A stretch of 35,258 bases of DNA, taken from the NCBI GenBank assembly GCA_018003015.1, contig JAGNEZ010000061.1, forward strand, positions 1 to 35,258. Direction: 5' to 3'. This document shows, one piece after another, positions 1-34,545 of this stretch. A program made the position numbers and the translations under genes. This DNA is from Phycisphaerae bacterium (GTDB taxonomy: Bacteria > Planctomycetota > Phycisphaerae > UBA1845 > PWPN01). The notes below the pieces were generated by a model, which worked only from the letters and a program-made list of their open reading frames with translations, ran no database searches and was not told the origin of the DNA. Position 1 is the first letter of the stretch; each line of letters opens with the position of its first letter.

Positions 1-166
1 GGCGACAACGTGCGATACATTCGTCGAATCCGTTCGATCACTGTTGCATCCTGCATCCACCCAATATCGGAACAACGCGATCGAACCTATCAACAATTGT
101 TCAGGTTATTCTTTTGCGGGCCCTAAGGCCCTTGCTTGGTGTGCGCCGGCAGACAGGAGAAGGCCC

Positions 167-3100
167 ATGAGAAGCCAACGATTCTCGTATGTCCTCGGGA
201 TACTGCTGGCCTGGTCGACCGGAACAGTTAAAGAAGTCTTGGCAACTATATGGAATCCTCAGTCGAGCGGCACGACGATGACCGAGCACGTCTACCGCAC
301 AGACGCCGACCACCGCAAGATCATCTGGGCAGAACACGCTGGCTTCACCATGGCCGTCGATGACGACGACGTCTACGACAACTGGACGAGCGCGGATGAC
401 GCCCCGCAGGTACGCATGAGCCTGAGCGGAGATCTCAATCATCTTCGTGCGACGGACTTCGCCGTCACCGTCCGAACCAGACTCAGTGTTGACTACGGCA
501 CCCGATTTCACGCCGGACTGTGCATCGCGTTCGGTGCCAACGACTTGCTGGTCTTCGGACCGCACGGGGCCACCGACCTTCGCCTCCGGCGGCCTGGCGG
601 CATCGACCATACGGTCACATTTTCAAGTCGCACTGCCTATCTGAAGATCAAACGCTCCGGAACGGTCTATGCCGCGTGGTACAGCTCGGACGGCGCCAAC
701 TGGACGCTCGCCACCACGACCACCATCACCGCCACACCGCTGCACATCGGCACCATTCTGAAGACCTGGTCCACCCCCCACAGCGAGACCGTCGGATTCC
801 AGTATTTCGACATCACCCACGTCGACAATGAGCCCACCGGAGGCATCTACAGCAACAACGTGAGATACGGCGATACCGATGCCACCGCCGTTCACTTCGT
901 GTACGACCTCTCCGGCATCGACATCATGCTCCGCATCTTCAAGCGCAAGGCGGCCGGCAATACCGCCGACCCCAACAACACCAAACTCTACGTGATTCAC
1001 GGCTCGGATAAGACCGCGACCCTCCAATATGACTCCTGGTTGAACTACGACCGGATCTGCGATGACCTCACCGGCACCGGATTCACGTACAACCAGACCA
1101 ACACTCTGGTGGTCGCTCCCAGATTCCTGCGAACCGGTCACCCCTACCCCGACCGCCTCAGCTTCTCCTACCAGGAACTCAACGGCGAGGAAGACTGGAT
1201 CCTGCTGGATGTCCACGAAAACTTCGTGCGCGAGCGTTTTCCCGCCACCGCGGCCTCGACAGACAACAAGTTCTACATCGTCGGCCACTCGGGCGGCGGG
1301 CAATTCGTCGCCCGCTTCCTGATGGGACACGCCAACAAGATCTACCGGGCCGCCCCTTCAAGCCCGGCCGGAACCGTCTGCCCTACCACGAGCTACAACT
1401 GGCCATATGGCACCCATCTGCCGTCGGACTTCCAGGGCAGCAACCCGCGGTTCACCGTGAGTCTGTCGGGGGCCTACGCTCTGCCCGTCGGCATGGTCAT
1501 GGGCGAGAATGACAACATCATCGATCGCGGCGAAGAGCTTTCTTCGACCTCACCCCCCGACAGCGACCACTACGATCCGTTCATCCTCGCCTACTCGCGC
1601 AAGGACGGGGCCATGAAATGGGCCCGCCAGATGCATCGCGCCAGCGGCGGAACGTCTCACGTCACCGTGTATATCCGCCCCGACAGCGGGCACGGCTTCG
1701 CGGCCAACAAGCGCGAAACGGCGCTGCTCTTTCTCTTCGGCACCGCCGCCGATCTCACGACCATCGGCAACTGGCGGTATTCGTTCGAACTCGACGGACA
1801 GGACACGGAAACAAGCGTCGGCCCGGCGGATGTGTCGGGCAACGTGTTCCGCTACTTCAAGTTCAACCGCTTTCGCGTGCCTCCAGATATAGCCGACCGC
1901 CGCTACGAGTTCGTGCCCGGCAGCACGACCTGCTTCGTGAGCGATAAGAACGGAATTGTCATCTCGACAAAGACCTACTCCCTCACCCACAACGCGACGA
2001 CACTGCGGCTGACCGTCGAGGGCGAAACCTACACTTCACCCAAGATCATCTACAACAAGCTGCGTCTCTACAGCCAGAGCGGCGACTACCTGCTCGAGGA
2101 GGCGCCAACCGCGACACCGACCTTCATCACTGAGCGAGTCGTGGGCCGCCACCTTCACTTCTACGAATCCACCGGCCGGGACCCTACCGGCCCCCTGGCG
2201 GACCCCCTGCCTTGGAGCGCTATTCAACTCAACGCCGATCTCACGGTGACCAACCCCGATACCGGCGCCGCGTTCGCCAGATCGACCATGCGGCGGTGGT
2301 ACTACGACAACGTCAAGCACCTGCTCTACTTCACCGACACCGCCGGCAACAAGGACATGTTCCGAATCGGGGACTGGCGATGGGGAACAGACGCCGGCTC
2401 CCATCTTTTTGTCGCCGGGGCGAGAACCCGCGACGAACACAACGAACCGCGGGCCGAGATCCAATCCGACGCGATCTACAACCCTCGTTATTTCGAAGAG
2501 TGGGACGTGGCCACCACCGACTTCGACGATGACGGCACCACGGACATCCTCGACAACTGCCCGGTCACCACCAATGCCCCACAGACCGATTCCGATGGTG
2601 ACGGCATCGGCGATCTGTGCGACCCGATCCCCATCCCCGCACCGACCGGCGTGGACGCCGATGACGGGACATTCCGCGGCCATCTCTGGGTCTACTGGAA
2701 TGCGGTGACGGGCGCCACCCATTACCGCGTCTACCGCAACACCAGCGACGATCCGGATGGCGCGGTACAGGTCACCGACTGGCAGGTCGCCCGCGGCTTC
2801 CAGGACACAAACCTGATCCCCGCAGAGAATTACTGCTACTGGGTCAGAGCGGCCACCGATGCCACCGGCACGATCGTCAGCCCGCTCAGCACGCCAAACT
2901 GGGGCTGGGCAAAAATCATGCCACCGCCCAACCTGACAGCTTCAGACGGCACCTACACGACCAGGATCCGGGTCGATTGGGATACAACCCAGGGCGCAAA
3001 CTGTTACCGCGTCTATCGCAACACCAGCAACGTCGTAGGCACGGCCGAGGCCCTGACTGGCTGGCAAGCCACCACAATCTACAGCGACACCAGCGCTCTG

Positions 3101-4654
3101 CCGGGAGTGACTTATTATTACTGGGTGTCGGCTGCGGTGAACCAGTCCGGCTGGCGGCCGAGTGATCTGCTCACATCCGTCATCGGCCGGCGGGCACGCG
3201 ACTGCAACGGCAACACCGTACCCGACCCGACCGATATCAGCGAAGGTACGAGCCAGGACTGCAACGAGAACGACGTCCCCGACGAGTGCGATCTGGCCGG
3301 CGGCACGAGCCAGGACTGCAACGAGAACGGCATCCTCGATGAGTGCGACCTCAAAACTCACCCCGACTTCGGACTGCCGGCGCAGTACCCCGCAGGTGAC
3401 GGGGCCCACGCGGTCGTCACCGCCGATTTTGACGGCGATGGCGACGTCGATGCGGTCACCGCCAACCACCTTGCGGACACCGTCTCGCTGCTGAAAAACG
3501 ACGGCCACGGCGCGTTCGCCGCTCCGGTTGACTTCACCGTGGGCGATAGCCCGTATTCGGTGGCGGCCGCAGACTTCGACTGGGACAACGATGTCGACCT
3601 CGCAGTCGCCAACTTCGGCAGCGACAGCGTCTCGATCCTGCTGAACGACGGCCACGGCGCGTTCGCCGCGGCGGTCAATTACCCTGTCTCCGACGGACCC
3701 TTCTTCGTGTACGCCGGCGAGGTGACCCGCACCGGGGTCGCCGATCTGGTAGTGGCATGCGCCCTGGCGGACAAGGTCCACCTCCTGTTCTACCGCGGCG
3801 GAGGCGCTTTCCTCGACGGCGGCAGCCACACGGTCGGCAATTACCCCGTGGCCGCCGTCGCGACCGACCTGAACAACGACAGCCACCCCGACCTGGCGGT
3901 AGCCAACTTCACCGCCAACACGGTCTCAATCCTACGCAACGACGGCGGCGGCAGCTTCACCTCAATCGGCGTCTATCCGGTCGAACGAAACCCTCGCGCT
4001 ATCCTCGCCCGCGACTTCGACACCGACGGAGACAACGATCTGGCCGTGGCCACGGCCAACACCACCCACGTCTGGGTCATGTACAATAACGGCACCGGCG
4101 GCTTCCCAACACTGTTCCCATTCGTCGTCGGGACCAATCCCCAGGGCCTGGCCACTGCAGATCTCGATGCGGACGGCGATCTGGATCTCGTGGCCGCCAA
4201 TCGAAGTACGGATGACGTCTCCGTCAAGCTCAATTACGGCAACGGCACATTCATGTCCGTCCCTCACTTTCCCGCCGGGGACGGCGCCGTAGCAGTGGCC
4301 GCCGCCGATCTGAACGGAGACGCCATGCCGGACCTCGCCGTGGCAAACGTCGACGCCGACGCGGTCTCGGTACTTTTCAACACCACCGTCCTGCCCGCCG
4401 GGTGGGACCAGAACGGCAACGGCATCCTCGACGGCTGCGAGATCCCCGGCGACTTCAACCGCGACGGGCACGTCGATCTCGACGACCTCGCGGCCTTGGT
4501 GGCATGCTTCACCGGACCCGAAATGCTTGTCCCCACCACCTGCAAAACCAAGGACTTCGACCGCGACGGCGACGTCGACCAATCCGACTTCGGGGTATTT
4601 CAGCGGTGCTTCAGCGGCCCGATTGTGCCGGCTGACCCGAACTGCGTGAAGTGA
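167..4654 (+). CDS. Secreted esterase/FG-GAP beta-propeller mosaic protein with dockerin-like tag
   Basis: This is a very large exported protein of 1495 residues. The ATG at 167 is preferred over upstream in-frame starts because AGGAGA lies at 155-160 and the product then begins with a signal peptide (MRSQRFSYVLGILLAW). Domains in order: a concanavalin/DUF1349-like beta-sandwich (about 70-215); an alpha/beta hydrolase with nucleophile elbow GHSGGG (Ser375), probable acid Asp449 (GEND) and probable His509 (DSGHG); a beta-rich stretch; a thrombospondin-3-type calcium segment (about 785-821); two fibronectin-III domains; two DCNEN...DECDL motifs; seven FG-GAP/VCBS repeats (about 1070-1410), enough for a seven-bladed propeller; and a C-terminal pair of dockerin-like calcium loops (about 1428-1495) with four cysteines. 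The role is inferred: an extracellular esterase acting on decorated polysaccharide or polyester. A short hairpin (GGGCC-CTAA-GGCCC, 118-131) precedes the RBS. The hydrolase is fairly certain; its substrate is unknown. Confidence 0.85.
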   Translation: MRSQRFSYVLGILLAWSTGTVKEVLATIWNPQSSGTTMTEHVYRTDADHRKIIWAEHAGFTMAVDDDDVYDNWTSADDAPQVRMSLSGDLNHLRATDFAVTVRTRLSVDYGTRFHAGLCIAFGANDLLVFGPHGATDLRLRRPGGIDHTVTFSSRTAYLKIKRSGTVYAAWYSSDGANWTLATTTTITATPLHIGTILKTWSTPHSETVGFQYFDITHVDNEPTGGIYSNNVRYGDTDATAVHFVYDLSGIDIMLRIFKRKAAGNTADPNNTKLYVIHGSDKTATLQYDSWLNYDRICDDLTGTGFTYNQTNTLVVAPRFLRTGHPYPDRLSFSYQELNGEEDWILLDVHENFVRERFPATAASTDNKFYIVGHSGGGQFVARFLMGHANKIYRAAPSSPAGTVCPTTSYNWPYGTHLPSDFQGSNPRFTVSLSGAYALPVGMVMGENDNIIDRGEELSSTSPPDSDHYDPFILAYSRKDGAMKWARQMHRASGGTSHVTVYIRPDSGHGFAANKRETALLFLFGTAADLTTIGNWRYSFELDGQDTETSVGPADVSGNVFRYFKFNRFRVPPDIADRRYEFVPGSTTCFVSDKNGIVISTKTYSLTHNATTLRLTVEGETYTSPKIIYNKLRLYSQSGDYLLEEAPTATPTFITERVVGRHLHFYESTGRDPTGPLADPLPWSAIQLNADLTVTNPDTGAAFARSTMRRWYYDNVKHLLYFTDTAGNKDMFRIGDWRWGTDAGSHLFVAGARTRDEHNEPRAEIQSDAIYNPRYFEEWDVATTDFDDDGTTDILDNCPVTTNAPQTDSDGDGIGDLCDPIPIPAPTGVDADDGTFRGHLWVYWNAVTGATHYRVYRNTSDDPDGAVQVTDWQVARGFQDTNLIPAENYCYWVRAATDATGTIVSPLSTPNWGWAKIMPPPNLTASDGTYTTRIRVDWDTTQGANCYRVYRNTSNVVGTAEALTGWQATTIYSDTSALPGVTYYYWVSAAVNQSGWRPSDLLTSVIGRRARDCNGNTVPDPTDISEGTSQDCNENDVPDECDLAGGTSQDCNENGILDECDLKTHPDFGLPAQYPAGDGAHAVVTADFDGDGDVDAVTANHLADTVSLLKNDGHGAFAAPVDFTVGDSPYSVAAADFDWDNDVDLAVANFGSDSVSILLNDGHGAFAAAVNYPVSDGPFFVYAGEVTRTGVADLVVACALADKVHLLFYRGGGAFLDGGSHTVGNYPVAAVATDLNNDSHPDLAVANFTANTVSILRNDGGGSFTSIGVYPVERNPRAILARDFDTDGDNDLAVATANTTHVWVMYNNGTGGFPTLFPFVVGTNPQGLATADLDADGDLDLVAANRSTDDVSVKLNYGNGTFMSVPHFPAGDGAVAVAAADLNGDAMPDLAVANVDADAVSVLFNTTVLPAGWDQNGNGILDGCEIPGDFNRDGHVDLDDLAALVACFTGPEMLVPTTCKTKDFDRDGDVDQSDFGVFQRCFSGPIVPADPNCVK

Positions 4655-13887: not shown

Positions 13888-16212
13888 TCAGTACGGGATG
13901 CAGCCGCTCGGCGGTGCGGCCGGGTCAAGGGCAATTGCCGGGCCGGTCACACATCTCTTAAACTCGTCCAGGTCGGCCGCGTCCACATCGCCGTCCGCGT
14001 CGCGATTGAAACGTTGACAAGCTTGTGTCGCGACGCCTTTGGCCCCGGTGTAACAGAGTTGCACTGCCGCAAAGTCGACCTGATCGACGTCGCCGTCCTC
14101 GTCGGCGTCCGGCCATAGCGCTGCCACCCCTGCCAGCCCTTCACCGCCCCAATAGGGGCAGCCCGGTATGCTCATGCTGACCACACGCACCCAGTCGAAC
14201 TCGAAGTCCCACTTGAGTCCGACACCGCGATTGCCCATCTCGCCAAGAGAGATGTAAGGTCTCCTGATCAGGGTACTGGCACCCCCTTCAGTTCGGAAAC
14301 TGAAGGTCGCCCCGCCGGGGCCAGCGACGGTCCCCTCGATACCTCCAAAAAGAAGTTTCTGACCGTCCAGCCACAGGTTCCAGTAGGCGTAGCCGGGGGT
14401 GAAAGCCGCATCGTAGCACCCGGAAGCGGCCCAGGTGTGAAACTGCCCATCGGCGACCGATTCGGCAAGCTCCAGTTCGTGCAGACCCGGGTAAACTTTG
14501 CCGTCGGCATTCAGAATGCCGACCACAGCCCCCTCGTTGATTCTGACATAGAGGGTGTAGTTGGAGACACTCGTCGAATAACCGCCGCCCGGAGAGCCCG
14601 GCTTGGTGGGGAGCAGGATCTGAATCGGCCCTTGCTCCATGACGTAGTCGCCCACCTTCAATCGCCAGGCCGCTGCAATGCCGAAGGCGGGTTCAAGCCG
14701 GTCGTCAAAGGGGAGATCAGCCTGAAATCGCTCTCGAGCCGCTATGTCCCAGTCGTACCAGAACTTGACGGCCGTCGGCCCCCCCTCGATATGGCTCTGC
14801 AAAAGCCAGTCGCCGCCAGGATAGTCACGGTAGAAGGGGTTCTCGTCCGTGTCCTGGGTCTTGAAACGGGCAACTTCGTAGCCCTCGGGATAACGAATCA
14901 GCGGACTCTCGGCATAGAGATTCTTATTCCAGAACGTCTGAAACTCGCCATTGAACTGCTGATGAACACAGGAAGGGTCAAAGACGCTCAGCACGACGTT
15001 TCTCGAGTGCTGATTCTGCGGAGAGCAGGAATCCGTGAACTGGAGCGTGGCGGTGTAGACCCCCATGGCGAGGCCGGATGCGTCAATCGTGCCCGTCACG
15101 ACGTGCGGCGGATCGCCCGGGGCAATCGTTCCACCGCTGTCGTCAAGCTGCAGCCAGGCTGCTCCCGGCGACACCGCAACCGTCCAGGTAACGGATGTCA
15201 TGCCGCCGTTCCTGATCTTGTACACCACCGGTTGCGACGCCGAGTCAGAGCGGGACGAGGACGTATACGTGTCACCCACGGGCGAGATCTCCAATCCGCA
15301 CTCGACGACCACCAGATCGATCTGCCTGACCAGCCTGTTCGCAGGATCGCAGCCATCGGTGAACGTCACGTAGGCCGTGTACGTGCCTTGAGGCAGGTCG
15401 GTGCTGTCCATCTGGATCCGGACGGTGCCGGTTTCCATCAAATCAAGCGGCCCGCCGGACGCCGGCGGTACGATCGACAGCCAACCGTAATCCGTCGGCA
15501 TGGCACCGGTCGCATCAGTCTCCTGGACTTGCCAGGTCAGGTCATCTTGCCTTCCAATGCTCTGGACGGCATAGGTGAGGCTGGCCGGCTCCGCCGCTTG
15601 GCCCCGAACGGCCGTGACGGTCTGTACATCGGCCGGCAGAACCCGGATACCACAACTCGGCAGCACATCGTCGTCCACGATCACCCGGTTGAGATAGAAG
15701 GACTCCTGGGCGCCGGCCTCCCGGAGAACGCGGAAATCACTGCCGCTGTTCAGACCGTTGGCGAATCTGGCATCGGACAGATGGAAGGTATGCCACTTCC
15801 AGACGTTCGTGTCTGTCAGCGGCGCACCGCCGACCCTCCCGAGGCCGCCAGTGGAATCGTACTCCAAATAGAGTTCACCAGTCCCGACATCGAAGTACTC
15901 GATCGTGACGTAGAGCACCGGCTTGTTTCCATTGAAGACGAAGGCGTCATCCACGGGGAACAGGAAGTAGATGTCCACGGTGTTGTTCCCGGTGCGCCCG
16001 AAGGGAACAGCGTTCCGGCGACAATTCACCCCCCCCATCCAGGCACGAATCGTCTGGCCGGCCTTGTGCTCGGCGGCGTTGGGCACCGTGCCGTGAGTGA
16101 TGCCGTTTTCGATGTTGACCGTTCCCAGGTCGATGGAGACGCTGTCCGAATGGGCCCTGTTCGCGGAGCACAAAACCAGTCCAAGTGCGAGAACTCGGAT
16201 CGCGGGCTTCAT
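13888..16212 (-). CDS. Secreted BACON/concanavalin protein with dockerin-like tag
   Basis: A 774-residue exported protein with a signal peptide (MKPAIRVLALGLVLCSANRA, cleavage probably near HSDS) and AAGGAGGG at 16217-16224 before the start. Domains: an N-terminal beta-sandwich (about 25-190) with a carbohydrate-binding-like motif (WKWHTFHLSDARFANGLNSG); two tandem BACON-like Ig domains (about 200-415), each with a LPQGTYTAYVTFTDGC or MGVYTATLQFTDSC strand; a concanavalin/laminin-G-like domain (about 420-690); and a C-terminal pair of calcium loops (about 698-774, DADEDGDVDQVDF and DADGDVDAADLDEF). No catalytic motif is evident, so it is probably a binding or scaffolding protein for polysaccharide. 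The gene lies between the intact pseudopilin gene and the decayed copy of its 3' end. Confidence 0.8.
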   Translation of the reverse strand: MKPAIRVLALGLVLCSANRAHSDSVSIDLGTVNIENGITHGTVPNAAEHKAGQTIRAWMGGVNCRRNAVPFGRTGNNTVDIYFLFPVDDAFVFNGNKPVLYVTIEYFDVGTGELYLEYDSTGGLGRVGGAPLTDTNVWKWHTFHLSDARFANGLNSGSDFRVLREAGAQESFYLNRVIVDDDVLPSCGIRVLPADVQTVTAVRGQAAEPASLTYAVQSIGRQDDLTWQVQETDATGAMPTDYGWLSIVPPASGGPLDLMETGTVRIQMDSTDLPQGTYTAYVTFTDGCDPANRLVRQIDLVVVECGLEISPVGDTYTSSSRSDSASQPVVYKIRNGGMTSVTWTVAVSPGAAWLQLDDSGGTIAPGDPPHVVTGTIDASGLAMGVYTATLQFTDSCSPQNQHSRNVVLSVFDPSCVHQQFNGEFQTFWNKNLYAESPLIRYPEGYEVARFKTQDTDENPFYRDYPGGDWLLQSHIEGGPTAVKFWYDWDIAARERFQADLPFDDRLEPAFGIAAAWRLKVGDYVMEQGPIQILLPTKPGSPGGGYSTSVSNYTLYVRINEGAVVGILNADGKVYPGLHELELAESVADGQFHTWAASGCYDAAFTPGYAYWNLWLDGQKLLFGGIEGTVAGPGGATFSFRTEGGASTLIRRPYISLGEMGNRGVGLKWDFEFDWVRVVSMSIPGCPYWGGEGLAGVAALWPDADEDGDVDQVDFAAVQLCYTGAKGVATQACQRFNRDADGDVDAADLDEFKRCVTGPAIALDPAAPPSGCIPY

Positions 16213-23877: not shown

Positions 23878-24390
23878 CCCTCATTCGGCAAAACCGATGC
23901 TCGTGGGTGCCCGCCTGGCGAGCTGCGGCAACAACATGTTCCCGGGTCCGCCTACTCCTACGGAGATGTTCGACCTTGTCTGCATGGCTGTCGGCCGCGT
24001 TGAACACTACCTGGCTCGTGGCCGGTCGGTGGGCAAGATGACCCGGAGGTGCTTACTGCACGGGCTGGCTGACGGGTAAGGGGCTGGAGGATCGCGAGCC
24101 CTCTTCGGCTCTGCGGCGACCCAATACGAGCAGAATCATGCCGATGGGCAGGTATCGCATCGCGTTCATCCTGTATTCAGCTTCTCCTTCCTGCCGTGGA
24201 TGGCAGTCTGCAGCAAGATGGACACGGTATCGACCGGACGACAAGCCGCCGATCACCCCGTGATGTGCCGACGACAGCCCTGGACACCCTTTGGAGGGTT
24301 CTGTACAATGCAAACAATGTCTCCAGAGGCATGGTCGGGCATCACGGGGGATTGCCCAGTGTCTCTGATATCCCTGCGCGGGGGGTGCTC
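23878..24390. other. 513-base gap with promoter
   Basis: The gap contains a good plus-strand promoter (24281-24309). Two small open frames were considered: plus 23897-24079 (60 codons, GC-rich third positions, no recognised domain) and minus 24053-24169 (38 codons; MNAMRYLPIGMILLVLGRRR, a possible membrane segment, with AAGGAG about 14 bases upstream). Neither can be confirmed. Confidence 0.4.
24281..24309 (+). promoter_or_regulatory. Promoter for the gene at 24391
   Basis: TGGACA (24281-24286) and TACAAT (24304-24309) are 17 bases apart, five of six matches to each housekeeping consensus hexamer. The leader to the ATG at 24391 would be about 75 bases. Confidence 0.6.
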
Positions 24391-25839
24391 ATGGCTCTTA
24401 CCAAGCGATCAGGTCTGATGTTGAGTGGCCTGGGCGTCGCCGCCGCGCTGTGGCTGGTCGTGGTCACGCGGTCGTTTGCGGAGCTGCACGCGAGCAACTG
24501 TGTCTCGCCGTCCGGCCCATCCGAGATCGTACGGGCGAATCTCACGCAGATCATGGCCGCGCTGTACACGTACGCGAATGCTAACGACGAGGCGTTCCCT
24601 CCCCGGCTCTCGATGCTCTACCCGGAGCTGATCTCCAACCCTGCGGTATTCTGGAACCCCGGCGACAGCGATCCGTGCCCGACGACGATCGACAACGATG
24701 ATCTGAACGGGATCAACAGCGACCAGGTGAGTTTCCGATACATCGGCGGCAGTGCAGCCGACGCACCATTCCTGGTGGTCCATGATCACTCGACCTCCAA
24801 CAACGGCGGCCTCGGGGTCCACGCCGCGATCAGCTCGAGGGGCGGCATCAGTTTCCTGGCCCCAACGATGTCCCCGCCGTCGTTCACCGCGGCGGCCCGT
24901 GCCAACCTGGAGGCCATCGGGGCAGCGCTCCGCAGCTATGCTGAGGACCACGAAGGCCACTATCCGCCGGCACTTTCGAAGCTGTACCCGGCATACATCG
25001 CCACCCCCGCAGTGTTCTGCAACCCGGGCGATACCGTCGGCCCGGGGAGCGTACCCCCAGCGACCATCAACAACGACACACCCAACCAAGCCAATAGCGC
25101 CCAGATTAGTTTCCAGTACATGGCTGCCGGGCAGAACCTGTGGGAGCTTTCGGCCGACGCCGTGCTCCTGCGAGAGAATCAAACTGGACTGGGAGGCAGG
25201 CAAGTGGCCCTGGAAGCACGCGCCAATGGGATCTACTCGATGCCGATCCACCAACTGACGCAGTTGACCATTTCCGGTCCTGATGCCGTGGCCGAAGGAC
25301 ACGCCGCGAACTTCGCCTGTCTGGCCACCTTCGATGACGGCACCATTCAGGATGTAACCCTGTCGGAGCACTGCCACTGGTTGGTATCCAACGGCCAGGG
25401 AGCGTTCGTCTTGCGCGGGCAGTATCTGGCCACACCGCTCATGCCAAACGACACGTCCGTCACCATCGAAGCGATCTACTACGGAGGGTCAACAAGCGAG
25501 CAGCAGACAAGCAAGACGATCACGGTTCTCGCCGACGCGGATGCCGACGGCGTTGAGGATTCGAAGGACCAGTGCCCCTGCACGATCGCTGGAGCGGCCG
25601 TCGACGCATTCGGCTGCCCGGCCTTGGTCTTCGGCGACGCGGATGGGGACGGCGATGTTGACACGGCGGACCTGGACACGTTCGTCGCGTGCGTATCGGG
25701 ACCAACGGTGCCGGCGCGGGCGGGATGCAAGGCTTTCGACCGAGACCGGGATTCCGATGTCGATCAGAGCGATTTCGGCTATCTCCAGCAATGCTACAGT
25801 GGGACAGGACGGCCAGGAAATCCGAACTGCGCGGGATGA
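24391..25839 (+). CDS. Secreted protein with two pseudopilin-like modules and dockerin-like tag
   Basis: A 482-residue exported protein. The ATG at 24391 is preferred over longer in-frame starts because it gives a signal peptide (MALTKRSGLMLSGLGVAAAL, then WLVVVTRSFA) and lies downstream of the promoter at 24281-24309; its ribosome-binding site is weak. Two tandem modules (about 47-155 and 168-285) resemble the globular part of planctomycete pseudopilins (ARANLTQIMAALYTYANAND then FPPRLSMLYPELI; ARANLEAIGAALRSYAEDHE then YPPALSKLYPAYI), each with a cysteine-containing loop (NPGDSDPCP, FCNPGD). Neither has a GFTLIE helix. An Ig-like domain (about 290-380), a thrombospondin-3-like calcium segment (DADADGVEDSKDQCPC) and a paired calcium-loop tag (about 413-482) follow. 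Function is unknown; it cannot polymerise as a pilin without the helix. Confidence 0.8.
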   Translation: MALTKRSGLMLSGLGVAAALWLVVVTRSFAELHASNCVSPSGPSEIVRANLTQIMAALYTYANANDEAFPPRLSMLYPELISNPAVFWNPGDSDPCPTTIDNDDLNGINSDQVSFRYIGGSAADAPFLVVHDHSTSNNGGLGVHAAISSRGGISFLAPTMSPPSFTAAARANLEAIGAALRSYAEDHEGHYPPALSKLYPAYIATPAVFCNPGDTVGPGSVPPATINNDTPNQANSAQISFQYMAAGQNLWELSADAVLLRENQTGLGGRQVALEARANGIYSMPIHQLTQLTISGPDAVAEGHAANFACLATFDDGTIQDVTLSEHCHWLVSNGQGAFVLRGQYLATPLMPNDTSVTIEAIYYGGSTSEQQTSKTITVLADADADGVEDSKDQCPCTIAGAAVDAFGCPALVFGDADGDGDVDTADLDTFVACVSGPTVPARAGCKAFDRDRDSDVDQSDFGYLQQCYSGTGRPGNPNCAG

Positions 25840-26117: not shown

Positions 26118-27878
26118 ATGCCGACTGTTCAGTCAACCCACCCGATTCGCACAACTGTCACCCTGCTGCCGGCCTTTCTTGGAGGTTGGATCTGGACTGC
26201 ACCACTCGCCTCGGCGGCGGAACAACGGATGATCGACGCCCCGCCGGTCGGTAGCCAGGTGTGGCCGTCGGAGCCGCCCAACGATTGTCCGTTCGAGCTG
26301 TCCAAGAGTCTGACGGGGGTGTTCTTCACCGGGCGGCACAGCAACTACCACTGCGGCGACACATGGTATCCGTCCTGGGCCAGCGACGGCAATCTGTACT
26401 CGCCATGGACCGATGGCAACACGGACGGCGTGAGTTCGGGCTCGGGCGGCGAGCAGGCCGTGGCCGGACAGGGTGTACTGATCGGCGACGATCCGCTCCG
26501 GCTGACGATCAAGAACACCGCCCCGCCGCAGCCGGCCAGCCCCCGGCCGTACGAGGGCCGTTACCCGTGCGGCAGCCTGGTCCACAACGGTATCTGGTAC
26601 TACGGCACTTACTGTCTGGGCCCGTCCGGCTCGGTGACCCACCAGGGCTTCACCTACAACTGGCCGGTGCTCGGGCCGATGCCGGGCTTCCGCATCTCCC
26701 GCGATGACGGCAAGACGTGGACGCCCTCGCCGCTGTCGCCGGTAAAGCCGCTCTTCCCCGAGCCGGCCAAGTTCATGGGTTCGGTCAAGATGGGCTGCCC
26801 GCACTTCGCCGATTTCGGCAGGAACATGGAGCATTCGCCGGACGGCAAGGCCTACCTCGTGGGTATGGGGGCCGAGGAGAACGATCCCAAACCCCGCTAC
26901 GCAAACCTGAGCTGGATCACCGGCGACCAGGTCTATCTGGCCCGGGTCACGCCCAGCCTGGAAAACATCAACGACGTGAAGAAGTACGAGTTCTTCGCCG
27001 GGCACGACGGCCAGGGCAAACCGGTGTGGACGGGTAGTTTCGCGAAGATCAAGCCCGTACTGGAGTGGAACAACAACATGGGCTGCGTAACGGTCACCTA
27101 CAACCCGCCGCTCAAGAAGTACCTCATGTGCGTGACCGACGGCTGGCCAACCTGCGCGAAGATGCGATCGTACATTCTGGAAGCCAACGCGATCACCGGC
27201 CCCTGGAGGCTGGTTACCTACATGAAGGACTTCGGCGAGCAGGGCTATTTCCTCAACTTCCCATCGAAGTTCATCAACAAAGACGGCCGGACGCTGTGGC
27301 TGTGCTACTCGGCCAACTTCGCACCCGACTGGAACGGAATAAAGCTCAGGATCAACCCGCCAGGCGGGCGATACGGCCTGTGCTTGCACGAGGTCAAGCT
27401 GCTGGCACCCGGCGAGAAGCCCACCATCGCGCCGAACCCGCTGGCCGGCCGGGAGAATGTGGCTCAAACCGCCCAGGTCGAAGCCAGCTCTGTCTACGAC
27501 GGCTACTATGCGAAAGGTGCGATCGACGGCGTGGTCGGCGGATTCCCAGGCAGCACCGCCGAGGAGTGGGCCTCCAAGGGCGAGACCCTGGGGGCGTGGA
27601 TCAAGTTGACCTGGGCTTCGCCGCAAACCGTCCGCCGGATCCAGCTTTTCGACCGACCGAACTCGCTCGACCAGATCATCGCCGGCAAGCTGGAGTTCAG
27701 CGACGGGACAACCCTCGAGTTGACCCAGCCGCTACCCGACGAGGCCGGGCAAGGTGTGGAGGTGTCCTTCGAGCCGAAGACCATCAGTTGGGTCAGATTC
27801 ACGGTGACTGCGGTCAAGATGAGTTCGCCGAATATCGGGCTGGCGGAGCTGGCTGTGCTGGCGAGCTCGCAGTCATGA
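26118..27878 (+). CDS. Secreted beta-propeller protein with C-terminal discoidin-like domain
   Basis: A 586-residue exported protein with a signal peptide (cleavage probably near LASA-AEQ, residue 34) and GAGGAG just before the start. Residues about 40-440 are built of repeated beta motifs with Trp and Asp (SRDDGKTWTPSP, HSPDGKAYLVGMG, TGPWRLVTYM, DGRTLWLCYSANF), like the five-bladed propellers of GH43/GH62/DUF4185-type or sialidase-like proteins. Residues about 445-584 form an F5/8-type C (discoidin, CBM32-like) sandwich (AQVEASSVYDGYYAKGAIDG, then VRRIQLFDRPN and SWVRFTVTAVKM). The combination suggests a glycan-active enzyme or a glycan-binding protein. Three acidic catalytic residues cannot be assigned by eye, so the activity is left open. 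Confidence 0.72.
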   Translation: MPTVQSTHPIRTTVTLLPAFLGGWIWTAPLASAAEQRMIDAPPVGSQVWPSEPPNDCPFELSKSLTGVFFTGRHSNYHCGDTWYPSWASDGNLYSPWTDGNTDGVSSGSGGEQAVAGQGVLIGDDPLRLTIKNTAPPQPASPRPYEGRYPCGSLVHNGIWYYGTYCLGPSGSVTHQGFTYNWPVLGPMPGFRISRDDGKTWTPSPLSPVKPLFPEPAKFMGSVKMGCPHFADFGRNMEHSPDGKAYLVGMGAEENDPKPRYANLSWITGDQVYLARVTPSLENINDVKKYEFFAGHDGQGKPVWTGSFAKIKPVLEWNNNMGCVTVTYNPPLKKYLMCVTDGWPTCAKMRSYILEANAITGPWRLVTYMKDFGEQGYFLNFPSKFINKDGRTLWLCYSANFAPDWNGIKLRINPPGGRYGLCLHEVKLLAPGEKPTIAPNPLAGRENVAQTAQVEASSVYDGYYAKGAIDGVVGGFPGSTAEEWASKGETLGAWIKLTWASPQTVRRIQLFDRPNSLDQIIAGKLEFSDGTTLELTQPLPDEAGQGVEVSFEPKTISWVRFTVTAVKMSSPNIGLAELAVLASSQS

Positions 27879-28065: not shown

Positions 28066-28071
28066 TATAGT
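28066..28071 (+). promoter_or_regulatory. -10 element directly before the start codon (possible leaderless transcript)
   Basis: TATAGT lies six bases before the ATG at 28078, so transcription would begin at or next to the start codon. No ribosome-binding site precedes that ATG. The -35 region is poor. This suggests, but does not prove, a leaderless mRNA. Confidence 0.35.
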
Positions 28072-28077
28072 ACCCCC

Positions 28078-29106
28078 ATGGGCGTGATGCGGGTCGGACT
28101 GATGGGACTTGGCCGCGGCGGCCGGCGGATTGCCCAGATCCTGAGGCAGAGCTCCTGGTGCGAGCTGACGGCCGTCGCCAGCCAGAAGTCCAAGGCCATC
28201 GAGCAATTCGCGGCCGAGCATCCCGGCGTGACCACGTATGACGATTTCCGCTCGATGATCGTGGCCAGCCCGCTGGACGCCCTGTTTGTGGCCGCCCCCC
28301 CCTACCAACGCGTCAAGTACCTGCCCCTGGCCGCCGAACGAAAGATCCCGGTGTGGATGCTGAGCCCGGCCATGCGCCAGTTTGCCGAGGCGGTCGAGCT
28401 GATGGACCGGTTTGAGAAGGCGGAATGCCCGATCGCCGTCTCGCGAAGCTGGGGGGTCGAACCGGCCATGCAGCCCGACTCGCTGGCTCTCGAACAAGCG
28501 GGCAAATTCTTCCTGGGCCGTGGCGAGGCGATGATCTGCTGGGACGACGACCTCGACTGGCGCGGCGATTCGCAGCGGGCCGGCGGCGGAGTCCTGCTCT
28601 ACCGGGCCTACACCGTGGTCGATGCTCTGGTTCAGGCGATGGGTACGCCCAATCAGGTCTACGCCCGAATGGCCGGCGTCTCGCGGCCCGGCGGACGGTT
28701 CCCGTACGACACCGAAGACACCGCCGGCCTGGTGTGCCAGTTCCCTGGCGGAGGCGTCGCGGTCGTCACGACCTGCTGGACGGCGGGTCCAACGGCCACT
28801 ACCTTGGTTCTGTTTGGCACCGGGGTTTCCATCCACATCGAGCCGGAGCAGATTGTGGTCCGCGACCGGACGGGAACAAAGGTGCTCAGCCGTCGAGAAC
28901 GATCTCCCAATCCCCTGCAGCCCCAGATCGAGGGCTTCCTGAGCGAGCTGGCGGCATCCCCTCGACGCATCCGAGCCACGCTGCGTCAGCACCTGCCGAC
29001 CATGGCCGTGATCCAGGCGGCGTACCTTTCAGCACAGACCGGCCAGCCGGAAAGCCCCGCCCGCCTGTTCGCGATGCACAACCTGGGAGCACCCCGCTCG
29101 GGCTGA
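28078..29106 (+). CDS. Gfo/Idh/MocA-like oxidoreductase lacking catalytic motifs
   Basis: A 342-residue protein with an N-terminal Rossmann fold (MRVGLMGLGRGGRRIAQILR, nucleotide loop GLGRGG) and the C-terminal alpha/beta domain of the Gfo/Idh/MocA family (GGGVLLYRAYTVVDALVQAM). The position of the usual EKP motif, which supplies the active-site lysine, reads RKIPVWMLSPAM here. In the usual GGGxLxDxGxHxxD segment the Asp and His are replaced by Tyr and Thr. It is therefore probably not a standard NAD(P)-dependent sugar dehydrogenase and may be a binding or regulatory pseudoenzyme. No signal peptide is present, so it is cytoplasmic. An alternative start is the ATG at 28087. It precedes pheA but is separated from it by a promoter, so it is likely a separate unit. 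Confidence 0.75.
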   Translation: MGVMRVGLMGLGRGGRRIAQILRQSSWCELTAVASQKSKAIEQFAAEHPGVTTYDDFRSMIVASPLDALFVAAPPYQRVKYLPLAAERKIPVWMLSPAMRQFAEAVELMDRFEKAECPIAVSRSWGVEPAMQPDSLALEQAGKFFLGRGEAMICWDDDLDWRGDSQRAGGGVLLYRAYTVVDALVQAMGTPNQVYARMAGVSRPGGRFPYDTEDTAGLVCQFPGGGVAVVTTCWTAGPTATTLVLFGTGVSIHIEPEQIVVRDRTGTKVLSRRERSPNPLQPQIEGFLSELAASPRRIRATLRQHLPTMAVIQAAYLSAQTGQPESPARLFAMHNLGAPRSG

Positions 29107-29217: not shown

Positions 29218-29313
29218 GTGGGGTTCTCGACCTGCGCGGGGGATCCCCGCGCCGGCGTGCCAGACGAAAAGACGAAGCAAGCCGTCGCGGTCGGCTATCC
29301 AAGGTGGCTGGGC

Positions 29314-30384
29314 ATGGGCATCGAAGAACTGCGCCAACAGATCGACAACATCGACCAGGAGTTGGTCGCCCTGCTCAACCGTCGCGCCACAGTCGTGGTC
29401 GAGGTCGGCAAGTTGAAGAGCACCTCGGGCGCCCCAATCTATGCCCCGGATCGCGAGAAGGCGGTCCTGGAGAAGATCTGCCGGGCGAACCAGGGACCGT
29501 TGCCCGACAAGACCCTGATGGCGATCTGGCGGGAACTGATGAGTGGGTCGTTTGCCCTGGAGCGGCCCCTGCGGATCGCCTACCTTGGCCCCCAGGGAAG
29601 CTACTCCCATCTGGCGGCGGTGGAGAAGTTCGGCCAGAGCGTCGAATACGAACCCGTGGCCAACATTCAGGGCGTCTTCCACGAGGTGTCGCACGAGCAT
29701 GCCGATTTCGGCATCGTGCCAATCGAGAACTCCGTAGGCGGCGGCGTGATCGATACCCTGGACGCACTGGTCGAAACCGATGTGCAGATCTGCGCCGAGA
29801 TCAACCGGGTGATTCATCACAACCTGCTGGCTAACTGCCCGTTGGAGGAGGTCAAGCAGGTTTACTCGAAACCGGAAGTCTTCGCCCAATGCCAGCGATG
29901 GCTGGCGGAGACGGATCTGGCGGGGACCACGATCCCGGTCGCAAGCACGAGCAAGGCGGCCGAGATGGCTCGATCGGAACCGGGAGCGGCGGCGATTGCC
30001 AGCACCCTCGCCGCGGAGCTGTACTCGCTCAAGATCGTGTGCGCCAATATCGAGGACAACGCCAAGAACGTCACTCGGTTCTTCGTCCTGGGAAACGAGG
30101 CGGCCAGACCGACCGGCGATGACAAGACATCCGTGGTCTTCACTACCAAGGACGAGCCCGGGGCCCTGGTGAACGTGCTGCAGGCTTTCCGCGAACAAGG
30201 GGTGAACATGTCGTTCATCCAGTCCCGGCCGAGCAAGAAACGGAACTGGGAATACTACTTCTTCGGAGATCTTAAAGGCCATCAGGAGGAACCTCGACTG
30301 AAGAAGGCCGTCGAGGCCGCCCGGGGCCACTGCCTGAGACTTAACGTGCTGGGGTCATTCCCCAGAGCTTCCGAGGATTCTTGA
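29314..30384 (+). CDS. pheA: Bifunctional chorismate mutase/prephenate dehydratase (P-protein)
   Basis: A 356-residue cytoplasmic enzyme that converts chorismate to prephenate and prephenate to phenylpyruvate, the phenylalanine branch. Residues about 1-80 form the AroQ chorismate mutase helix bundle (MGIEELRQQIDNIDQELVAL, later APDREKAVLEKI). Residues about 86-262 are prephenate dehydratase (IAYLGPQGSYSH, VPIENSVGGGV, and the TRF triad at Thr254-Arg255-Phe256). Residues about 273-345 are the ACT regulatory domain, with GALV at 283-286 and QSRP at 303-306, where ESRP is usual for the phenylalanine-binding motif. The ATG at 29314 is preferred because of the upstream promoter at 29189-29217 and AAGGTGG just before it. 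The next gene, tpiA, starts 22 bases after the stop, so the two may be cotranscribed. Confidence 0.95.
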   Translation: MGIEELRQQIDNIDQELVALLNRRATVVVEVGKLKSTSGAPIYAPDREKAVLEKICRANQGPLPDKTLMAIWRELMSGSFALERPLRIAYLGPQGSYSHLAAVEKFGQSVEYEPVANIQGVFHEVSHEHADFGIVPIENSVGGGVIDTLDALVETDVQICAEINRVIHHNLLANCPLEEVKQVYSKPEVFAQCQRWLAETDLAGTTIPVASTSKAAEMARSEPGAAAIASTLAAELYSLKIVCANIEDNAKNVTRFFVLGNEAARPTGDDKTSVVFTTKDEPGALVNVLQAFREQGVNMSFIQSRPSKKRNWEYYFFGDLKGHQEEPRLKKAVEAARGHCLRLNVLGSFPRASEDS

Positions 30385-30406
30385 ACGAACCAGAGTGGAG
30401 ATGACG

Positions 30407-31174
30407 ATGCGACGCAAGTATGTGGCGGGCAACTGGAAGATGAACCTGAATCTGGCCGACGCCAAGGCCTTGGTCAAGGGGATCCAGGCGGGTCTGCCGG
30501 CCAAGCCCGGGATCGACGTGGGAGTCTTCCCTCCATCCGTCTACCTGAAGAGCGTGGCCGAGGTCCTGCCGCCTTCCATCATCATGGGCGCTCAAAACTG
30601 CTACTTCGAGGCCGGCGGGGCGTTCACCGGCGAGGTTGCACCCCAGATGCTCAAGGACGTGGGTTGCACCTGGGTAATTATCGGACACAGTGAGCGTCGG
30701 CACATCCTGGGCGAGACGGGCGAAGTGCTCAAGAAAAAGGTCAAGGCCGCTCTCGCCGCCGGTCTCAAGGTGATCTACTGCGTGGGCGAACTGCTCGCCG
30801 AACGGGAAGCCAACCAGACCGAGCTGGTCCTGCGCCGCCAGATCCGGGAGGTCCTCGGGGTAGACGTCACTCTGGACTCAGTGGTCATCGCCTACGAGCC
30901 GGTTTGGGCGATCGGCACGGGTAAGACGGCCACACCAGCCCAGGCCCAGGAAGCCCATGCCTTCATTCGCGGCGAGATCGCCAGTCTGTATAATAGTACC
31001 GTCGCCGGCAAGCTGATTATTCAGTACGGCGGTAGCGTCAAGGCAAGCAACGCCCAGGAACTGATGGGCCAGCCCGACGTGGACGGGGCTCTGGTCGGCG
31101 GCGCAAGCCTCAAGGCCGAGGAATTCCTCGGGATCATCAACGGCGGGATCGCCGCTCAGGCTGGCGGAAAGTGA
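30407..31174 (+). CDS. tpiA: Triosephosphate isomerase
   Basis: A 255-residue cytoplasmic glycolytic enzyme interconverting dihydroxyacetone phosphate and glyceraldehyde 3-phosphate. All hallmark residues are present: Lys11 in GNWKMN, His94 in IIGHSERR and Glu164 in AYEPVWAIGTGKTAT, followed by the flexible loop and the phosphate-binding IQYGGSV and GGASLK segments. The length matches the family. Three in-frame starts lie at 30395, 30401 and 30407; the last is chosen because GGAG lies six bases upstream and the product then begins MRRKYVAGNWKMN. It lies between pheA and secG, and tpiA-secG is a common bacterial neighbour pair. Confidence 0.97.
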   Translation: MRRKYVAGNWKMNLNLADAKALVKGIQAGLPAKPGIDVGVFPPSVYLKSVAEVLPPSIIMGAQNCYFEAGGAFTGEVAPQMLKDVGCTWVIIGHSERRHILGETGEVLKKKVKAALAAGLKVIYCVGELLAEREANQTELVLRRQIREVLGVDVTLDSVVIAYEPVWAIGTGKTATPAQAQEAHAFIRGEIASLYNSTVAGKLIIQYGGSVKASNAQELMGQPDVDGALVGGASLKAEEFLGIINGGIAAQAGGK

Positions 31175-33095: not shown

Positions 33096-33334
33096 TCGAG
33101 GCATTGAAGGACGACACGATCATCAAGAAAGTGGGCGGCCGGTTCAAACTCACCGCCCTCATGCAGAAACGGTGGGTCGAGCTGATGCAGGGCAGCCGCC
33201 CGTTGGTCGACACCGCCAGCAAGACGGAGCTCGACATCATCGCCGAGGAGATCATCGGCGAGAAAATCACCGCCGAGATCGGCGAGGACTCGGCCGTGAC
33301 GCCGGAGGCCGGAAGTACCGACGATGACACCTGA
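33092..33334 (+). CDS. rpoZ: RNA polymerase omega subunit
   Basis: An 80-residue protein matching the omega subunit, which helps assemble the beta' subunit into RNA polymerase. Visible family features are the opening MIEALKDDTIIKKVGGRFKL, then TALMQKRWVELMQGSRPLVD and a final helix ending in an acidic tail. The start codon overlaps the gmk stop by four bases and its own stop overlaps coaC by 11 bases. Small size and position between gmk and coaC support the call. Confidence 0.9.
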   Translation: MIEALKDDTIIKKVGGRFKLTALMQKRWVELMQGSRPLVDTASKTELDIIAEEIIGEKITAEIGEDSAVTPEAGSTDDDT

Positions 33335-33899
33335 CCTGAACGGGTACGAAGTGATCGTGGCCGTGGGCGGCGGGATCGCCGCATACAAGGTCTGCCACGT
33401 CGTATCCCGGCTGGTCCAGCGAGGCTGCGGGGTCAACGTCGCCATGACCGACGCCGGGACGAAATTCGTCACCCCGCTCACCTTCCAGGCCCTCACCCGG
33501 CGCCAGGTCTTTACCACCCTGTGGCAGACCGAAGGACACTATGACCCCCAGCACCTGAGCCTCACCGAACTGGCCGACCTGTTGCTCGTCGCACCGGCTA
33601 CCGCCGACCTGATCGGCAAGTTCGCGGCCGGCATCGGTGACGACCTCGTGACTACACTCATGCTGGGGCGCGGTTGCCCCGCCCTGCTCGCCCCTGCCAT
33701 GAACACGCGGATGTGGGAGAACCCCATCGTCCAGCGGAACGTGATCTCGCTCCGCGAATGGGGTTACGCCTTCGTCGAGCCGGGCGAGGGCTGGCTGGCC
33801 TGCGGAACGACCGGTACCGGCCGCATGGCGGAAGCCGACACCATCCTCGACGCGGTCACTCAGCTACTTCGACTGAAGCCACCCAGACAATCTCCCTGA
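33324..33899 (+). CDS. coaC: Phosphopantothenoylcysteine decarboxylase (separate CoaC)
   Basis: A 191-residue flavoprotein that decarboxylates phosphopantothenoylcysteine to phosphopantetheine in coenzyme A synthesis. The catalytic residues fit the Escherichia coli CoaBC pattern with a constant offset: His77 (PQHLSL), Asn127 (APAMNTRMW) and Cys160 (LACGTTGTGRM). The flavin-binding GGGIAAYK and PATADLIGKFAAGIGDDL segments are present. In most bacteria this domain is fused to CoaB; here the reading frame ends and a separate gene starts 10 bases later. The start overlaps rpoZ by 11 bases. Confidence 0.94.
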   Translation: MTPDLNGYEVIVAVGGGIAAYKVCHVVSRLVQRGCGVNVAMTDAGTKFVTPLTFQALTRRQVFTTLWQTEGHYDPQHLSLTELADLLLVAPATADLIGKFAAGIGDDLVTTLMLGRGCPALLAPAMNTRMWENPIVQRNVISLREWGYAFVEPGEGWLACGTTGTGRMAEADTILDAVTQLLRLKPPRQSP

Positions 33900-33909
33900 G
33901 GCACATCAC

Positions 33910-34545
33910 GTGAACGTGCTCATCTCGGCCGGTCCGACTCGCGAGTACTTCGACTCGGTACGCTTCATCTCCAACGCGTCATCGGGAAAGATGGGCTACG
34001 CCATCGCCGGCGCGGCGGCCAGACGAGGCCACCGGGTCACACTGGTAAGCGGGCCGGCGACGATCCATGCCCCCAAAGGCGTCAAGGTCGTCCGCGTCGT
34101 GACTGCCGCCGACATGGCCCGGGCCTGCAAGCAGGCGTTCAAGACCGCCGACGTCGCGGTCATGACGGCAGCCGTCTCCGATTACCGCCCCGCGACTCGG
34201 GCAGGCCGCAAGATCCCCAAGCCAAAGAAGGTCATGCGCGTCCGACTCGAGCCGACCGAAGACATCGCCGCCGCACTCGGCAGTCGCAAGGGAAACCGAC
34301 TGCTGGTCGGCTTTGCGATGGAGGACCACGGAGGCTACGCCAAGGCCCGGCGCAAGTACCAAAAGAAGAACTGCGATCTGATCGTGCTCAACGGCCCCGA
34401 GAACCTCGGAGCAGACCACGCACGAGTCGAGCTCTACACCACCCGCCAGGGTTGGTCGCGCCCGATCCAGGGCACCAAAGCCCAAATCGCCCGCCGGCTT
34501 GTCCTGGCCATCGAGCGCCTCGCGACCCGTCCGGCAGACGTGTAG
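33910..34545 (+). CDS. coaB: Phosphopantothenate-cysteine ligase (separate CoaB)
   Basis: A 211-residue enzyme that joins cysteine to phosphopantothenate using a nucleotide triphosphate, the step before CoaC. The signature ISAGPTREYFDSVRFISNAS, then SGKMGYAIA, and the AAVSDYRP segment are present, followed by the lysine-rich KIPKPKK loop expected near the active site and VGFAMEDH. It starts with GTG at 33910, as the frame opens with LISAGPTRE at the usual distance. It probably works with CoaC as a two-protein replacement for the fused CoaBC. Confidence 0.93.
   Translation: MNVLISAGPTREYFDSVRFISNASSGKMGYAIAGAAARRGHRVTLVSGPATIHAPKGVKVVRVVTAADMARACKQAFKTADVAVMTAAVSDYRPATRAGRKIPKPKKVMRVRLEPTEDIAAALGSRKGNRLLVGFAMEDHGGYAKARRKYQKKNCDLIVLNGPENLGADHARVELYTTRQGWSRPIQGTKAQIARRLVLAIERLATRPADV

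Follow-up and report, generated by a model that had tools for sequence, protein, structure and literature searches.

The window, by which we mean the whole stretch of 35,258 nucleotides that was analysed, is contig 61 of a Phycisphaerae bacterium genome (GCA_018003015.1; 6.86 Mb, 98.67% complete). It carries an open reading frame for a protein of the Gfo/Idh/MocA fold, with its stop codon at 29104-29106, and downstream of this the genes pheA and tpiA (Table 1).

Table 1. Genes, motifs and residues of the locus (positions are those of the window).
Feature	Position	Strand	Basis or remark
Putative pseudo-oxidoreductase, Gfo/Idh/MocA fold	28078..29106	+	342 aa plus stop; translation, Pfam, predicted model, structure matches
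Dinucleotide-binding loop GLGRGG, residues 10-15, intact	28105..28122	+	Translation
Ser35	28180..28182	+	Ser in 10/13 own-family members; mostly Asp in the group (102/142)
LSP, residues 95-97, at the EKP site; catalytic Lys gone	28360..28368	+	Translation, alignments, census
Arg100, three residues after the EKP proline	28375..28377	+	113/144 group members vs 1/17 out-group proteins
GGGVLLYRAYT, residues 169-179, at the GGGxLxDxGxH site	28582..28614	+	Translation, census
pheA (chorismate mutase / prephenate dehydratase / ACT)	29218..30384	+	Likely start ATG 29314; not a conserved neighbour
tpiA (triosephosphate isomerase)	30395..31174	+	Pfam; not a conserved neighbour

The Pfam scan found PF01408 (GFO_IDH_MocA; 42.4 bits, cut-off 24) and PF22725 (GFO_IDH_MocA_C3; 43.2 bits, cut-off 27) in the protein. 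Its AlphaFold model, built from seven input sequences, had a pTM of 0.82 and a mean pLDDT of 80.3 (65.7-72.6 in the other four models), with low confidence at residues 161-169 and 202-205. Matches of the model included Gfo/Idh structures with bound NAD, namely 5uhw (Z 32.2, 318 residues) and 6o15 (Z 31.3, 321 residues), and by its domains and its fold the protein belongs to the Gfo/Idh/MocA superfamily. WlbA UDP-GlcNAcA 3-dehydrogenase and others (3q2k, 5uhw and 6o15; Z 31-32 over 317-321 residues, 16-17% identity) share with it the two-domain fold, the length, the Rossmann loop and the GGG segment, and 3q2k was also the best sequence match of the profile of the orthologue group described below (115 bits, among the matches listed). 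In the NCBIfam scans no model among those listed reached its cut-off, either for the window protein or for eight relatives. The best NCBIfam profile for all eight relatives was that of IolG, the myo-inositol dehydrogenase of the same superfamily (TIGR04380), for which the window protein scored 29.4 bits, below the cut-off of 355.

Active-site motifs of the window protein

PMC5969746 proposes a catalytic role for Lys106 of the EKP motif, Asp191 and His195; the lysine touches the sugar, the lysine and the aspartate are described as conserved across the family, and the histidine as conserved in inositol dehydrogenases. In the window protein we found four changes at these sites (Glu95 to Leu, Lys96 to Ser, Asp175 to Tyr and His179 to Thr), while Pro97, the glycines 169-171, Asp182 and the GLGRGG loop are retained. 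HMMER alignments to solved Gfo/Idh proteins pair LSP with the EKP of 8qc3 and Thr179 with the histidine of 8zn9, and the group profile, when aligned with WlbA (3q2k) and KanD2 (6jw6), gave the same result at both sites. The protein therefore has Ser96 where a Gfo/Idh/MocA enzyme has the lysine of EKP, and Tyr175 and Thr179 in place of the aspartate and the histidine (or tyrosine). The preliminary description had read both catalytic motifs as replaced and the Rossmann loop as kept, and this reading holds at every one of these positions: the loss of the triad is shown.

This loss sets the protein apart from 3q2k, 5uhw and 6o15, which it otherwise resembles, and from IolG. The glucose-fructose oxidoreductase of Zymomonas also matched the model (Z 28.9-29.2). 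This enzyme uses NADP(H) and has a tyrosine at the histidine position while keeping EKP, whereas the window protein has threonine at the former and LSP at the latter.

Two ways in which the active site might have been restored were rejected. There are no indels between GGG and Asp182 and the spacing is kept, so a register shift does not restore the motif. The preliminary description had also raised the possibility that a lysine and a histidine enter the active site from other positions; we looked for these and found that no lysine of the window protein is conserved across its own family and that histidine is conserved at two positions only, His305 (13/13), where a C-terminal helix starts, and His334 (12/13), just past the last helix.

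Distribution and evolution of the orthologue group

We searched for orthologues with a profile of 53 group members, accepting matches at E ≤ 1e-48. Exactly one match each was found in 59 of 114 genomes of the order and in 120 of 298 sampled genomes of the class. The gene is therefore dispensable, since 55 of the 114 order genomes had no match (32 of 65 among those of good quality). In a sample of 392 genomes of the phylum, scores above 200 bits occurred in the class only (11 genomes). Outside the class, the best score in this sample was 156.7 bits, modestly below the 174.9 bits of the weakest full-length match accepted (G035). The nine top-scoring proteins from outside the class all keep both EKP and the histidine. 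A single-sequence search of the 13 genomes of the window's own family (f1) gave one match in each of 12, and in the remaining genome the gene is present as two pieces, which lie at contig ends. The six named relatives identified by sequence all come from metagenome-assembled genomes; three carry the label Planctomycetota, and the others are labelled Phycisphaerae, Phycisphaerales and simply "bacterium" (one each). Among the papers listed by our search of open-licence PMC articles, none deals with a group of this kind or with Gfo/Idh pseudoenzymes.

We then compared residues across 145 rows from 144 genomes, including the window and one genome represented by two fragments. The matched genomes G035, G046, G233, G257 and G284 were left out of this census, as was L247, a canonical Gfo/Idh protein from a genome (G102) without a match at 1e-48. 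Column 96 holds lysine in 1 of the 144 members readable there and column 179 holds histidine in 28 of 144, and 115 of the 143 members readable at both sites had neither; in the window's own family both counts were 0 of 13 readable rows. In the control, 17 of 17 out-group proteins (those used in the tree) had the lysine and 16 of 17 the histidine, the remaining one having tyrosine. As a control within the source genome, which has 76 PF01408 matches, 67 of the 75 besides the window protein keep the lysine, four have valine, one has isoleucine and three were unreadable, so that five of the 72 that could be read (L265, L269, L273, L282 and L283) have lost the lysine.

The rows with His179 fall in f17 (22/24), f15 (3/6), f16 (2/2) and f9 (1/1). 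The only member read with both the EKP lysine and the histidine is L110 (genome G121) of f16, and the second f16 member has threonine at the lysine site. The preliminary description had asked whether orthologues across the phylum share the same replacements: the loss of the lysine is shared by nearly the whole group, but the loss of the histidine is not always shared.

Two residues before the lost lysine, Lys94 is present in 78 of 144 group members, and therefore some relatives may still be enzymes. Met94 takes its place in the window protein and in 12 of 13 members of its family. The 28 members with His179 have Lys94 in 24 cases, Glu175 in 24 and both in 21 (e.g. L099, L101 and L102 of f17), and Lys94, Glu175 and His179 are a possible shifted catalytic triad in these members.

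Several other positions are near-fixed in the group: Asp56 and Arg58 (142/142 each), Pro97 (144/144), Trp161 (131/143), Gly171 (143/144), Asp214 (143/144), Tyr316 (142/143) and Thr321 (143/143). The out-group also has Trp161 (16/17), Pro97 (17/17), Asp182 (15/17) and Asp214 (13/17). More typical of the group are Arg100 (Table 1) and Tyr178, next to Thr179, which is found in 116 of 144 members (aromatic in 135) and in none of the 17 out-group proteins. Tyr178 also occurs in His-bearing families and therefore did not arise as a replacement of the histidine.

The GxGxxG loop is intact in f1 (12/13), f17 (22/24) and f15 (5/6) and degraded in f3 (intact in 0/23), f7 (1/18), f21 (0/14) and f25 (0/8), so cofactor binding is not the common function of the group. 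These sequences suggest that dinucleotide binding has been retained in the window's family, with a possible preference for NADP(H) because Asp35 has become serine, and that several sister families do not bind a dinucleotide in the usual way. The binding of NAD(P) proposed in the preliminary description is thus plausible for the window's family, but sisters such as f3 and f7 have lost the loop.

A quick maximum-likelihood analysis of 160 proteins gave a tree in which one branch (SH-aLRT 97) separated the 143 group members from the 17 others, and f1 (12 rows) also had a support of 97. The group follows taxonomic family lines in this tree: among the 13 sets listed, 11 need one change each, f23 two and f17 three. 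With the out-group as root, f16 branches first and f17, with the histidine, stands apart from a mostly His-less remainder; it should be noted that the deep branches are partly weak (support 19 and 44). The minimum number of changes on the tree was two for the lysine and five for the histidine. As the two f16 members differ at the lysine site and the tree needs two changes there, the lysine was either lost twice, or lost once and regained once. The pattern suggests a stepwise loss of lysine and histidine with inheritance inside lineages, although a single origin is not proven by the tree.

The gene is under purifying selection. By the Nei-Gojobori method, the window gene has a dN/dS of 0.12 when compared with that of its genus mate, L058. 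In the 22 most similar pairs with 75 to 98.5% identity the ratio ranges over 0.08-0.21, values which are rough in the seven pairs with dS above 1. On this basis we rejected the idea of a decaying pseudogene.

Gene neighbourhood

The likely start of pheA lies 207 nt after the end of the putative pseudoenzyme gene. The position beside pheA and tpiA noted in the preliminary description is true of the window and of one sampled genus mate but was not seen beyond the genus: neither gene lies in the stretches, some of them short, that were retrieved for the other 59 of the 60 loci. We therefore rejected a functional link to pheA and tpiA as unsupported beyond the genus. Between positions 27800 and 31300, scanning gave no sigma-70-like promoter, and the one terminator-like site lies on the minus strand; a scan for Shine-Dalgarno sequences did no better than chance. 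The end of the hexamer TATAGT lies 6 nt ahead of the start codon of the putative pseudoenzyme gene (window 28066-28080), as it also does in L058. The gene may be leaderless, although the promoter scan gave no full sigma-70 match.

No cluster of neighbours common to the whole group was found, so orthologues do not share the window's neighbours; neighbours were instead family-specific. The counts that follow are approximate, as the Pfam scan covered one member per cluster and gene calling relied on a simple codon score. A glyA gene was found in 37 of 50 loci of f19, f21, f23, f25, f28 and f29, in 26 of them immediately upstream in the same orientation. In 22 of 23 f3 loci the next gene downstream encodes a GH123-like lipoprotein, and 14 of 19 measurable f3 gene pairs overlap by 4-22 nt; at the one f3 locus scanned (L170:3981-6866), this gene carries PF13320, PF22680 and CBM9. 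The group gene also lies near a BatA-like gene in 12 of 18 f7 loci, a gene for S-adenosylhomocysteine hydrolase in 5 of 6 f15 loci and surE in 8 of 24 f17 loci. At one end of each stretch, L099, L102 and L105 have another Gfo/Idh-like ORF and an ORF that on reading resembles lpxC, about 5-6 kb from the group gene.

Possible functions of the protein

The preliminary description had proposed a pseudoenzyme, and this is well supported by the missing lysine and histidine throughout the window's family, the losses in most of the class-wide group and the purifying selection. The window's family is very probably inactive as an oxidoreductase. Since the residues needed for catalysis are lost while selection maintains one copy of the gene in many related bacteria, the protein probably has a non-enzymatic job, for example sensing or holding other molecules. 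Our main reading, to which we give a probability of roughly 45%, is a maintained pseudo-oxidoreductase which in the window's family probably retains dinucleotide binding, perhaps of NADP(H), and serves as a regulator or scaffold; sensing or regulation would be the likeliest role.

Under this reading, a Gfo/Idh/MocA sugar dehydrogenase would have given rise to a non-catalytic descendant which retained the two-domain fold and which, in the window's family, would still bind a dinucleotide, probably NADP(H). The old substrate pocket, now with Arg100 and Tyr178, would hold a ligand without oxidising it, and a ligand-dependent conformation or dimer state could then regulate or scaffold a partner protein. 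Such a protein might work like yeast Gal80 without being Gal80. Gal80 is a Gfo/Idh relative without catalytic residues, and a Gfo/Idh fold lacking the catalytic triad is the trait that the window protein has in common with it. As described in PMC8801411, yeast Gal80 has an N-terminal NAD(P)-binding Rossmann fold and a beta-sheet C-terminus for dimers, and acts through protein binding. However, Gal80 is eukaryotic, with Gal4 as its partner, and no candidate for such an activator was found for the window protein; Gal80 was absent from the 50 structure matches listed and from the 60 of 79 group-profile matches listed, which excludes nothing. Gal80 would be the precedent for a protein of this kind. 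A bolder version, which we regard as unlikely, would make the group a class-wide regulator that arose by loss of the lysine and then the histidine, a bacterial counterpart of Gal80 that in f1 changed over to NADP(H) and reads the NADPH or sugar-nucleotide state of the cell, while its sisters gave up the cofactor.

Arg100 and Tyr178 are both group-typical and, in sequence, close to the former active site. This placing would also fit a pocket rebuilt for another, non-redox reaction on a sugar or acid (isomerisation, hydrolysis or lyase), with Asp182 and Asp214 taking part, as would the GH123-like lipoprotein gene directly after the f3 gene. We think this doubtful, because both aspartates are common in the out-group too, members of the family have T, P, E, G, D or A in the column of the catalytic histidine and none of the NCBIfam models listed reached its cut-off. 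The protein could instead be a pure scaffold or subunit, which would bind no ligand and would form heteromers with some other protein, for instance a Gfo/Idh paralogue that is still active. The 75 other PF01408 matches in the genome are possible partners, and several sister families have lost the dinucleotide loop while the protein is still conserved. The intact GxGxxG in 12 of 13 members of the window's own family and the lack of a neighbour gene common to the group nevertheless make this reading, too, an unlikely one.

Continued activity as an oxidoreductase through unusual residues is more improbable still: the possible shifted triad in 21 of the 28 His-bearing relatives speaks for it, but the window's family has Met94 in 12 of 13 members, no His179 and no conserved lysine of the window protein. 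The least credible alternative by far is a decaying copy without function, which would account for the lost catalytic residues and for the order genomes without a match but is at odds with the low dN/dS in all 22 pairs, the open frame and the presence of the gene in 13 of 13 genomes of the family.

Gfo/Idh/MocA genes are routinely annotated as oxidoreductases, and a maintained orthologue group without the triad would be a warning against such automatic annotation. Living intermediates (with lysine and histidine, with histidine only and with neither) would form a natural series from enzyme to non-enzyme, in which L110 of f16, having kept both residues, would be a natural active control. If ligand binding were confirmed, the window protein would provide a bacterial case for a fold best known as a yeast regulator.

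Two further features were observed elsewhere in the window. The halves of CoaBC are split between adjacent separate ORFs, with the PF02441 flavoprotein domain at 33324-33899 and the PF04127 DFP domain at 33910-34545. Three large ORFs (44-4654, 13888-16212 and 24196-25839) end, by their translations, in repeated DxDxDG dockerin-like motifs.
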